A DNA stretch of 56,161 bases from Fimbriimonas sp. (GTDB lineage: Bacteria; Armatimonadota; Fimbriimonadia; Fimbriimonadales; Fimbriimonadaceae). The translations under genes and the position numbers were made by a program. Shown here in pieces: positions 24,577 through 43,096 of this stretch (the first letter of the stretch is position 1; each line of letters starts with the position of its first letter). The notes under the pieces are model-generated. The model worked only from the letters and a program-made list of their open reading frames with translations. It did no database searches and had not been told where the DNA came from. Location: assembly GCA_029866005.1 (NCBI GenBank), contig JARXAE010000020.1:1-56161 (forward strand), written 5' to 3'.

Positions 24577-24600
24577 CACCCGAACGCAGGCGTTCGGGTG
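24577..24600 (-). terminator. Perfect 10-bp hairpin between isomerase and FAH genes
   Basis: CACCCGAACG and CGTTCGGGTG flank a 4-base loop. It lies 38 bp after the isomerase stop and 7 bp before the FAH start, with no U-tract. It may be an intra-operon attenuator or processing hairpin, and it sits so close to the start that it could mask initiation. Confidence 0.5.
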
Positions 24601-24638: not shown

Positions 24639-25544
24639 CTACTGATCGCACCAGCGGTAAGCATCGATGAGCTTGCGCTCGCCTTCTTTGCCGCCTTGGC
24701 TGTTGCCGTGCTCCATTCCGAGAACGCCGGTGAAGCCTTTCTTCTTGATGTGCCGGAAGATGTTTTGGTAGTTGATCTCGCCGGAGAGAGGCTCTTTTCG
24801 TCCGGGGTTGTCGCCGATCTGGAAATAGGCAATTTCGGAGTAGGAAGCGTCCATGTTTGGAATCAAATTCCCTTCGTGGATTTGCTGATGGTACATGTCC
24901 ATCAGGATCTTGCAGCTTGGCGAGTTGACTGCACGGCAGATCTCGAATCCTTGGGCCATCTTGTTGAGGAACAAGCTGGGGTGGTCGCGATAGTTGAGCG
25001 GTTCGAGAACCATGACAAGGCCGTGCGGTTCGAAAATCTCACTTGCATAGCGCAAAGACTCAATGACGTTTGCCGTTTGGTAGCCGAGCTCCATGTTGTA
25101 GGAGATTGTTCCGGGGACAACAGTCATCCATTTTGCGTTGACACGTTTGGCGCAATCGACAGCCACACGACACTCGTCCAAGAACTTCTTGCGGGAGTCC
25201 GCATTTCCGGTAGTAAGCGTCGCACTCCATGCGGTTCCAAGGTTGACAACGAAGACTCCCATCGTGATTCCGAGGTCGCTCATCGCCTTGGCAAGCTTCT
25301 CTTGATCTTCGACGGATCGGCCGGCCATTCCGTTGTCTTCCCAAGCGGTAAACCCTTCATCGGCCGCAAACTTTAGCTGGTCAAGATCTGATTTCGCATG
25401 GTTAGAGAACATGCCGAAGTGCGGGCCGTACTTGGCCTTAAACTTTTCGCCCCGTAGCGACTTGCCGATTTCCGTGATTGCATCCATTTTGCCAACACTG
25501 ATGGCGGCTCCCGCCGCCATCAGTTCCCGTCTCGATATGTCCAT
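24639..25544 (-). CDS. Sugar phosphate isomerase/epimerase-like TIM barrel (hydroxypyruvate isomerase group)
   Basis: A 301-residue xylose-isomerase-like TIM barrel. The N-terminus (DISRRELMAAGAAISVG) looks like a weak or vestigial Tat signal without a strong hydrophobic core. Barrel motifs include FAADEGFTAWEDNGM, MVLEPLNYRD (metal-binding Glu near 185), ILMDMYHQQI, FQIGDNPGRKEP and GVLGMEHGNS, as in hydroxypyruvate isomerases. The start overlaps the upstream oxidoreductase stop (TGATG), so translation is coupled. The context (oxidoreductase upstream, sugar-acid dehydratases downstream) suggests isomerisation or epimerisation of a keto sugar or sugar acid. The exact substrate is unknown. Confidence 0.85.
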   Translation of the reverse strand: MDISRRELMAAGAAISVGKMDAITEIGKSLRGEKFKAKYGPHFGMFSNHAKSDLDQLKFAADEGFTAWEDNGMAGRSVEDQEKLAKAMSDLGITMGVFVVNLGTAWSATLTTGNADSRKKFLDECRVAVDCAKRVNAKWMTVVPGTISYNMELGYQTANVIESLRYASEIFEPHGLVMVLEPLNYRDHPSLFLNKMAQGFEICRAVNSPSCKILMDMYHQQIHEGNLIPNMDASYSEIAYFQIGDNPGRKEPLSGEINYQNIFRHIKKKGFTGVLGMEHGNSQGGKEGERKLIDAYRWCDQ

Positions 25545-27654: not shown

Positions 27655-28191
27655 TCAGCCGCCTTTCTTCATTGCCTCGCGCAACCGCGCTTCGGCATCG
27701 CCAGACCAGTAGCCACATTCGAGTTGGAAGAACACCGAAGTGTAGGGCTGGATGTGGGGCGTCTTGATCAAGAGAACTTTGAACGTCTTTCCTGCCTCAT
27801 CAAGCTTGGCGATGATTTCTTCGTGAAGTTCGCGAGCGACCGTTTTGCCTTTGAGAAGTCCATCGAGAGATTTGCGGTACGAGGAAATTCCTTTGGCGTC
27901 TGCTTCTGGAACGAACTGCAATTCCTTATCGACCATGATTGTCGGGCGGACGTGTCTGGTCTTGGATAGAGCCGCCATGACGACCTTCACGGCTTCGAGT
28001 TGGGACATGTTGACGGTAATCGTCTCGATTCCTGGCGCAGTTTGAAGTGGGTAGGCGGAGTCAGCTACAACGATCCAGTTGCGGTGTCCGAGAGCAGGAA
28101 GTTTTGCCTTGAGCATCGTCTCAAGTGAGGGGGCTTGGGCCATAGCCGAGGCGGCTACCAACAAAGATGGCAAAAGAAAATGAGCATTCAT
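27655..28191 (-). CDS. RbsD/FucU-like sugar mutarotase family protein, exported
   Basis: About 178 residues from ATG 28191, chosen because it gives a clean signal peptide (NAHFLLPSLLVAASAMAQA) and follows a TATAGT box by 6 bp. A longer frame from 28308 would run through the divergent promoter region. Family features are LPALGHRNWIVVADSAYPLQ near the start of the mature protein and YTSVFFQLECGYWSGDAE at the end, as in RbsD/FucU pyranase/mutarotases. The usual His of the GHGD motif is retained as GHRN. Export is unusual, because RbsD and FucU are cytosolic. It may interconvert pentose or fucose anomers in the periplasm. It is divergent from the GH36-like gene. Confidence 0.75.
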   Translation of the reverse strand: MNAHFLLPSLLVAASAMAQAPSLETMLKAKLPALGHRNWIVVADSAYPLQTAPGIETITVNMSQLEAVKVVMAALSKTRHVRPTIMVDKELQFVPEADAKGISSYRKSLDGLLKGKTVARELHEEIIAKLDEAGKTFKVLLIKTPHIQPYTSVFFQLECGYWSGDAEARLREAMKKGG

Positions 28192-28197
28192 GCTCAC

Positions 28198-28203
28198 ACT
28201 ATA
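28198..28203 (-). promoter_or_regulatory. -10-like TATAGT, 6 bp before the ATG at 28191
   Basis: The minus-strand half of a divergent leaderless promoter pair. The palindrome at 28209-28231 lies directly upstream. Confidence 0.5.
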
Positions 28204-28208
28204 GGCGA

Positions 28209-28231
28209 GGACTTGCCCTGGTGGCAAGTCC
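28209..28231. promoter_or_regulatory. 9-bp inverted repeat between divergent promoters (candidate operator)
   Basis: GGACTTGCC and GGCAAGTCC flank a 5-base centre (CTGGT). It lies 5 bp from the TATAGT box on one side and 7 bp from the TAAACT box on the other. A dimeric regulator bound here would cover the -35 region of both genes. No regulator gene is adjacent. Confidence 0.5.
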
Positions 28232-28238
28232 AGTTGGC

Positions 28239-28244
28239 TAAACT
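28239..28244 (+). promoter_or_regulatory. -10-like TAAACT, 6 bp before the GTG at 28251
   Basis: The plus-strand half of the divergent leaderless promoter pair. No Shine-Dalgarno sequence. Confidence 0.5.
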
Positions 28245-28250
28245 GGCTCC

Positions 28251-30284
28251 GTGCTTCTCGCCGCCGCTGTCGTGATGTCGAACCTCGCCCGAATCGAACG
28301 AACTCCAACTGAGTTGGTGCTTACGAACGGGATTGTCGAGCGAAGAATTCACCTTGATCGATTTGTGACAACGACCTCTCTTCGGCGATTGGATACTGGG
28401 AATGAGTACATCCGCTCGGTTGAGCCGGAAGCTGTGGTGCAAATTGACGGAAAAGAGGTGCTTCTCGGAGGAACAACCGCCCCACCCAATCGAGCGTTTC
28501 TGGATCCAACTTGGCTCAAATCACTGAAAGCCGATGAGAGGTCATTGCGATTTGTAGGGCTCGAAGAAGTCCCTCTGCTCCGACCGGTACCGCATACCAC
28601 CACCGATAACTCTCCTTGGCCGCCAAAAGGAAAGGCAGTGATGCTCTACTTCAAGAGTGAAGTTCTGACAGCTGCGGTTCGGTACGAGGTTTATGACAAT
28701 CTCCCTGTGCTCGCGAAGCAGGTGGAGATTGTCAATCGAGGACCAGCTTCGGTGCGGTTGGATAAGATTTCCAGCGAACGACTGAGCGTTGTGGAGGGAG
28801 AAAGCAATGTCGAGGCGGCTCGTTCTTGGCGGCTACCGAACATAACTGCGTTGACCGATATGGCGTTTGGCGGCGGAACGGTGGATGCCGGTTCCGCCGT
28901 GCACTGGGATGTTGATCCTCGCTACCAGACTCAGGTGAGCTACGAACTCAAGACCCCCGCTCTGCTCGATATCCATCCGCCCGTGGGGCCAGGATTAGAC
29001 CTCGCTCCGAACGAGAATTTCAAGTCGGTGCGCTCGTATTTGGTTCTACACGCTTCGGATGAGCGGGAACAGAAATCGCTGGATGTGCGGCACTTCTTCA
29101 GAAACTTTGCCCCGTGGACGAACCAAAATCCGCTGATTCTGCATATCGTTTCGACGGATGAAGTGAAGGTCAAAGCGGCGATTGACCAGGCGGCAGAGTG
29201 CGGTTTTGAGATCGCAATTTTGAGCTTTGGCAGCGGTCTGAATATGGAGGACACCTCACCAGGGAACCTCAAGAAGTTCAAGGGTTTACGTGAGTATGCA
29301 GATTCTAAGGGGATTCGGCTCGGAGGATACTCTTTGCTTGCCAGTCGGCGAATTGACGACGAGAATGACGTGATCAACGTCAAGACGGGCAAAACGGGTG
29401 GAGCGATCTTCGGAAATTCGCCTTGCCTTTGCTCCAAGTGGGGGCTTCAATACTTCGAGAATCTGAAGACCTTCATCCGCGAAACCGGTTTTCATATTCT
29501 AGAGCACGACGGCAACTATCCGGGTGACCCTTGCGCTTCGACAACCCATCCTGGGCACCGGGGCTACGAGGACTCGCAGTGGAAGCAGTGGAAAATGATC
29601 ACCGACTTTTACAGCTGGTGCCGGTCAAGAAATGTCTATCTGAATGTGCCGGATATCTATTTCTTGGCAGGTTCCAACAAGGGTGCGATGGGCTACCGCG
29701 AAACGAATTGGTCGCTCCCTCGGGAGCAGCAGCACATCCACACCCGGCAGAACATTTTTGATGGGACATGGGATAAGAATCCTTCCATGGGTTGGATGTT
29801 TGTTCCGCTTGTTGAGTACCAGGGCGGCGGTGCAGCAGCTACGATTGAGCCTTTGAAGGACCACTTGTTGGACTACGAGCTTCACCTCGCCAATAACTTA
29901 GGCTTTGGGGCGCAGGCTTGCTACCGAGGAATGCGGCTATATGATTCACCAGAGACGAAGGCAATGGTGCTTCGGATGGTCGGCTGGTACAAGAAGTACC
30001 GGGAGATTCTGGAGTCGGATATTGTCCACCTTCGCCGTGCAGATGGTCGACGGCTTGATTTCATCTTACATATCAACCCAGCTGCGTCACCGAGCGCAAT
30101 GTTGATGGCATACAACCCGACAGATGAACGCCTTACCGAGACCGTCAATGTTCCGCTGAAGGGGACGAGCGCGAAGATTCGCGAGAGGGAAGGCAAGTCG
30201 TCCGTCATCAAGGTCAAGAACGGGTTTGCCCAGGTCAAACTGGACATTCCCGCCAAAGGCTGGACCTACTTTCCGATCAATTAA
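28251..30284 (+). CDS. GH36-like (clan GH-D type) glycoside hydrolase
   Basis: A 677-residue protein starting at a GTG 6 bp after TAAACT. The short hydrophobic start MLLAAAVVM may be a poor signal. An N-terminal beta-supersandwich (about 1-280: RIERTPTELVLTNGIVERR) is followed by a TIM barrel with FEIAILSFGSG, GIRLGGYSLLASRR and the LEHDGNYPGDPCA motif near residue 425, whose Asp is a candidate nucleophile. CYRGMRLYDSPE and a C-terminal beta domain ending KGWTYFPIN complete it. The overall layout matches alpha-galactosidase-like proteins. The substrate is unknown. Given the neighbouring xylanase, an alpha-linked side chain of hemicellulose is plausible. Confidence 0.72.
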   Translation: MLLAAAVVMSNLARIERTPTELVLTNGIVERRIHLDRFVTTTSLRRLDTGNEYIRSVEPEAVVQIDGKEVLLGGTTAPPNRAFLDPTWLKSLKADERSLRFVGLEEVPLLRPVPHTTTDNSPWPPKGKAVMLYFKSEVLTAAVRYEVYDNLPVLAKQVEIVNRGPASVRLDKISSERLSVVEGESNVEAARSWRLPNITALTDMAFGGGTVDAGSAVHWDVDPRYQTQVSYELKTPALLDIHPPVGPGLDLAPNENFKSVRSYLVLHASDEREQKSLDVRHFFRNFAPWTNQNPLILHIVSTDEVKVKAAIDQAAECGFEIAILSFGSGLNMEDTSPGNLKKFKGLREYADSKGIRLGGYSLLASRRIDDENDVINVKTGKTGGAIFGNSPCLCSKWGLQYFENLKTFIRETGFHILEHDGNYPGDPCASTTHPGHRGYEDSQWKQWKMITDFYSWCRSRNVYLNVPDIYFLAGSNKGAMGYRETNWSLPREQQHIHTRQNIFDGTWDKNPSMGWMFVPLVEYQGGGAAATIEPLKDHLLDYELHLANNLGFGAQACYRGMRLYDSPETKAMVLRMVGWYKKYREILESDIVHLRRADGRRLDFILHINPAASPSAMLMAYNPTDERLTETVNVPLKGTSAKIREREGKSSVIKVKNGFAQVKLDIPAKGWTYFPIN

Positions 30285-42424: not shown

Positions 42425-43096
42425 CTAGCCAAGGAGTTCCGCGACGAGTCGCGGAACTCCCTCAGTGGCAGATTCAGCGATGATCTCAACGTTCGCTCGC
42501 CCCTTGGCGTTCGGTTTAGGGTCAACCAGGACTTTACGCTTTGCGTTTGAGATATCGACAAGGCCAGCGGCCGGATAGACAGTAAGACTTGTACCGATGA
42601 TGAGGAAGATTTCGGCACTTTCGGCGAGCATGATTGCGGTTTCCCAATCGTAAGGGGTTTCTTCGAAGAAGCAGATATGTGGTCTGAGTTGATGACCGTC
42701 ATCAGCAAGGTCTCCAAGGCGGATATCACCTCGAATCTCCTGTTGAACCTCAAAATCGTAGCTGCTTCTGGCTTTAAAGATTTCTCCGTGAATGTGAAGT
42801 ACGTTCTTGCTCCCAGCCCGTTCGTGGAGATCGTCAATGTTCTGAGTGATGATGCTCACCAGGTGCTGTGAAGCAAGCTCAGCTAAGGCAAAATGCGCTG
42901 CATTTGGTTCTGCATTGACAACCTCCCGTCGACGGAAGTTGTAAAACTCCAAAACGCGTTCCGGATGTTCCGCCAACGCTCTTGGCGTGCACACCTCTTC
43001 GATGCTGTAACCGCCCCAAAGGCCATCTTCGTCTCGAAAAGTCTTCAGACCTGACTCGCGTGAAATTCCGGCGCCGGTGAGGGCAACTATGTGCAT
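42425..43096 (-). CDS. NAD-dependent protein deacylase, Sir2 family (zinc-tetrad lacking)
   Basis: About 223 residues from ATG 43096, which begins the family core HIVALTGAGISRESGLKTFRD. CAATAT lies 6 bp upstream. NAD-binding motifs are present: the GAGIS loop, ITQNIDDLHERAGS, HIHGEIFKAR (catalytic His) and FLIIGTSLTVYPAAGL. EFYNFRRRE carries a Tyr-x-x-Arg pair as in class III desuccinylases. The four zinc Cys are absent: the segment between the catalytic His and LRPHICFFEE reads SYDFEVQQEIRGDIRLGD. Zinc-less sirtuins of this type are known. A 13-bp hairpin lies inside its last codons. Confidence 0.9.
   Translation of the reverse strand: MHIVALTGAGISRESGLKTFRDEDGLWGGYSIEEVCTPRALAEHPERVLEFYNFRRREVVNAEPNAAHFALAELASQHLVSIITQNIDDLHERAGSKNVLHIHGEIFKARSSYDFEVQQEIRGDIRLGDLADDGHQLRPHICFFEETPYDWETAIMLAESAEIFLIIGTSLTVYPAAGLVDISNAKRKVLVDPKPNAKGRANVEIIAESATEGVPRLVAELLG
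42433..42460. terminator. 13-bp perfect hairpin between convergent genes
   Basis: GGAGTTCCGCGAC and GTCGCGGAACTCC with a 2-base centre. It lies 9 bp after the di-heme gene stop and inside the last codons of the sirtuin. It could stop or insulate both transcripts. There is no U-tract on either side. Confidence 0.55.

Follow-up and report, generated by a model that had tools for sequence, protein, structure and literature searches.

Overlapping divergent promoters that share a repressor operator are a generally known type of arrangement. A distinct body of work concerns leaderless genes: in Zheng et al. (2011; PMC3160421) the bacterial leaderless signal is a TANNNT motif some 12 bp ahead of the start, and in Deinococcus this motif has been demonstrated to function as a -10 region (PMC12340547). 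As for the present phylum, a full-text literature search for leaderless genes in Armatimonadetes, Armatimonadota or Fimbriimonas returned nothing that, judged from titles, opening lines of abstracts or passages, appears to address them; PMC10783764 lists Fimbriimonadia for its anti-Shine-Dalgarno type, in passages that carry no mention of leaderless genes there.

Here we consider a short gap between two divergent genes of Fimbriimonas sp., lying within a window of 56,161 nucleotides (the whole stretch of DNA that was analysed). A preliminary description had read this gap as two divergent leaderless promoters closed together by one shared operator. Our analysis makes it very probable that the gap is an overlapping pair of divergent leaderless promoters of the sigma-70 type and that its palindrome is a chance match around a promoter element.

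Architecture of the gap

The start codons of the two genes, an ATG at 28191 on the reverse strand and a GTG at 28251 on the forward strand, are 60 bp apart and enclose a gap of 59 bp. Toward the left gene the order is TATAGT-GTGAGC-ATG, with the -10 box TATAGT at 28198 to 28203 on the reverse strand, and toward the right gene it is TAAACT-GGCTCC-GTG, with the -10 box TAAACT at 28239 to 28244 on the forward strand. The placement of both boxes in the preliminary description thus holds, and exactly 6 nt separate each box from its start codon. The left gene additionally has a probable -35 element, TTGCCA, at 28222 to 28227 on the reverse strand, set off from its -10 box by an 18-bp spacer.

Between the two -10 boxes, at 28209 to 28231 of the window, the sequence itself contains a perfect 9-bp inverted repeat, GGACTTGCC-CTGGT-GGCAAGTCC, whose arms (28209 to 28217 and 28223 to 28231, given on the forward strand) are separated by 5 nt and whose right arm is overlapped by TTGCCA. 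The repeat is exact, as had been claimed, but to say that it fills the space between the boxes is slightly generous, since it covers 23 of the 35 bp and leaves 5 bp free on the left and 7 bp on the right.

Flanking genes

The left gene (27655 to 28191, reverse strand) codes for an RbsD/FucU-like protein of 178 aa. It matches PF05025 (RbsD_FucU) with an E value of 6.6e-06 and 27 bits against a cut-off of 25, which is a narrow pass, and a profile of 13 of its homologs gives weak matches to RbsD structures (E values of 0.09 and 0.22). The right gene (28251 to 30284, forward strand) codes for a distantly GH36-like protein of 677 aa, which none of the Pfam models matches above cut-off; the model Glyco_hydro_36N reaches an E value of 0.014 and 15.4 bits against a cut-off of 27, short of what membership in GH36 would take. 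The same model appears at an E value of at most 0.1 in 7 of 12 homologs of the right gene (best, 4.2e-4), and a profile of the 12 homologs matches the α-galactosidase 2xn0 with an E value of 2.6e-4, which suggests that the protein is at most a distant GH36 relative. The labels first given to the two genes are accordingly weak: RbsD/FucU stands by its narrow Pfam pass, whereas GH36 falls below the cut-off and keeps some profile support. The further idea that the gap is a sugar-responsive switch has no support of its own. Members of the family of the 677-aa protein are found in records titled Armatimonadetes, Bacteroidetes, Paenibacillus, Planctomycetota and Verrucomicrobia.

Probable leaderless promoters on both sides

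In both genes the first T of the TANNNT box stands exactly at -12, the position typical of leaderless genes of the TANNNT type. This spacing is enriched genome-wide as judged from a sample of 332 genes, in 38 of which TANNNT ends 6 nt before the candidate start, the highest count of 31 spacings; spacing 7 is found in 30 genes and the others in 7 to 25, the median of the other 30 spacings being about 15. Among homologs of the right gene (27 of 31 match rows, the count excluding two partial rows from G038 and two from G020), TANNNT occurs at spacing 6 in 12 of the 27, and every other spacing accounts for at most 4. The RbsD-like homologs (26 of 29 rows; L051, L060 and L061, which are partial or near contig ends, were left out) show it in 3 of the 26, solely in the three genomes that share the gene pair. 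A leaderless left start as a trait of the RbsD-like family was consequently rejected, and in this respect the family of the right gene differs.

On the right, the TAA of TAAACT (28239 to 28241) is an in-frame stop. The reading frame therefore opens no earlier than 9 nt ahead of the GTG, and its start cannot lie much further upstream. On either side, the interval from box to start codon is too short for a Shine-Dalgarno sequence. With each box ending 6 nt before its start codon, transcription would be predicted to begin at the start codon or next to it. No clear motif emerged when a -35 consensus was sought among the 38 sampled leaderless promoters, and the grounds for assigning CTTGC a probable -35 role in the left promoter are thus two, its conservation and its resemblance; the right promoter has no conserved -35 element, TTGCCC at a 20-bp spacer being a poor candidate.

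We also observed a divergent gap of 36 bp (L092:2157-2192, in G000:C7) with TANNNT 6 nt before both starts, the longest perfect repeat of which is 5 bp. Divergent gaps with leaderless promoters on both sides are thus not always accompanied by a long palindrome.

Conservation in genomes sharing the gene pair

We searched 61 genomes, among them the 2.81-Mb genome to which the window belongs. The right gene has matches in 28 of these and the left gene in 23, and the two are adjacent and divergent in 3: the source genome, G018 and G001. A search of all 20 genomes of the genus added no further divergent pair, so statements on conservation draw on few sequences, those of the three genomes that have the pair in common. 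The left protein is 88% identical to its ortholog in G018 and 81% identical to that in G001.

In each of the three genomes the gap measures 59 bp, and the alignment is free of indels. Three segments are invariant across the alignment: TATAGT, a 14-nt block that includes TAAACT, and CTTGC. Of the repeat, the left arm has no invariant position among its 9, and the right arm has 5 of 9, which together make up the CTTGC ascribed to the -35 region of the left gene. For the source genome the longest perfect repeat in the gap is 9 bp, as compared with 4 bp for G018 and 5 bp for G001, and the perfect palindrome is found in the first of these alone. The aligned sequences indicate that the promoters are conserved and the palindrome is not.

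This pattern separates two parts of the preliminary description. The two divergent leaderless promoters are well supported, by invariant -10 boxes and a constant gap of 59 bp in all three genomes and by the enrichment of their spacing in the genome sample; judged from these sequences, they are probably genuine, and they belong to a kind already known. The shared operator, in contrast, is not supported: the preliminary description had counted it as refuted if the repeat occurred only here or was not conserved in relatives with the same gene pair, and both outcomes were observed, the palindrome being gone from the two relatives.

A promoter pair with a probably coincidental palindrome

The reading that we favor, and regard as very probable, is built from these elements. 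The footprints of two polymerases would overlap across 60 bp. With the start codons only this far apart, the two promoters overlap and are probably not occupied by two polymerases at once; mutually exclusive in that case, they would place the two genes in competition without any repressor. The right arm of the repeat would contain what is probably a conserved -35 region (TTGCCA) serving the left gene, and the left arm would be unconserved sequence that happens to match it.

How readily such a match arises can be gauged from shuffled sequences. When the 59-bp gap was shuffled 20,000 times with its dinucleotides preserved, a perfect repeat of at least 9 bp with a loop of 0 to 20 nt was obtained in 84 cases (0.42%), and one with a loop of 3 to 8 nt in 28. 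There are 57 divergent neighbor pairs in a 362-kb sample of the genome, or about 440 in 2.81 Mb by extrapolation, and with the shuffle rate of 0.42% this gives one to two such gaps expected per genome by chance, an expectation that is rough because the pairs come from crude ORF calls and the gap lengths vary. A 9-bp repeat is therefore unlikely in one chosen gap but not in a genome-wide scan. When 26 of the 57 pairs were assessed, namely, those with 19 to 599 bases between the outermost candidate starts, a perfect repeat of at least 9 bp was present in 2, the repeat at 28209 to 28231 included. Moreover, perfect repeats number 187 in the real sample versus 24 to 32 in its shuffles (nested repeats being counted repeatedly), and since they are commoner in real sequence, a perfect repeat alone is weak evidence. 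Elsewhere in the window there are longer perfect inverted repeats, at 24577 to 24600, 25497 to 25524 and 42433 to 42460, with arms of 11, 12 and 13 bp, respectively.

Alternative readings of the palindrome

The alternative that survives best, although we consider it unlikely, is that this species has recently acquired the palindrome as an operator, at which one bound dimer blocks both promoters. It would have the right form and place: its perfect 9-bp arms are of typical operator size, its center, 28220, falls between the two -10 boxes, it covers both -35 regions, and so few shuffles of the gap do as well. Its absence from both relatives with the same pair, which are at 81 to 88% protein identity, nevertheless counts against it, as does the outcome of searches for further sites, which the preliminary description had proposed as a check. 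With up to three mismatches, the source genome has 2 places, one besides 28209 to 28231, versus 4 for a reversed-pattern control; with up to two mismatches, the 20 genomes of the genus have 7 places versus 7 for the control; and a 7-bp core with up to two mismatches has 18 places in the source genome versus 16 for the control. Near-copies are thus not clearly above control, and no regulon sites that exceed it are visible in the source genome or its 19 congeners. Nor did Pfam scans of eight genes between 21.7 and 31.4 kb, both flanking genes included, name any DNA-binding regulator. The lack of conservation and of further sites led us to reject the shared operator as the main reading.

An operator serving this locus alone would likewise show no further sites above control. 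In that version, which we hold to be improbable and somewhat more so than a recent operator in general, point changes in this one species would have turned the conserved -35 region on the left into a perfect palindrome, and a local repressor would close both leaderless promoters at once. The operator in its original form would be of importance only on proof of binding.

In the congener G002 there are two near-identical palindromes, GGTCTTGCC-N5-GGCAAGACC, at C1:195640-195662 and C7:184376-184398, the latter about 1 kb from an RbsD-like paralog; these two may be terminator hairpins.

It is very improbable that the repeat in the gap works at the RNA level, as a hairpin or as a terminator of transcripts reading through from either side. 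Its 9-bp arms and 5-nt loop would permit a hairpin, but the repeat lies between divergent genes and upstream of both predicted transcription start sites, neither arm adjoins a run of T, and the repeat is not conserved; position and the absence of a T run led us to reject this reading. An origin of the repeat as the trace of a small mobile palindromic element, for which the palindromic form and the presence in one of the three genomes with the pair might speak, is scarcely credible and was rejected as nearly refuted by the equal gap length of 59 bp in all three genomes without indels, and there are no close copies in the genome.

Comparison with known systems

The coincidental palindrome in a promoter pair, which we thus prefer, bears only a partial likeness to divergent promoters with a shared operator. 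The locus has the same divergent promoters and a palindrome over both -35 regions, but here the palindrome is unconserved, it lacks further sites, and no regulator is seen in the eight genes scanned. It illustrates how divergent promoters can come to enclose a perfect palindrome by coincidence, one of the arms being a constrained promoter element.

The closer likeness is to the bacterial TANNNT leaderless genes, as the relevant passages of PMC3160421 and, for Deinococcus-Thermus, of PMC12340547 portray them: in both cases the first T lies 12 nt before the start, and a Shine-Dalgarno sequence would not fit. Relative to the genes portrayed there, the present locus differs in belonging to the Armatimonadota and in having two such promoters set back to back in a gap of 59 bp. 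Through conservation and through positional enrichment, it thereby furnishes sequence evidence that leaderless promoters occur in the Armatimonadota.
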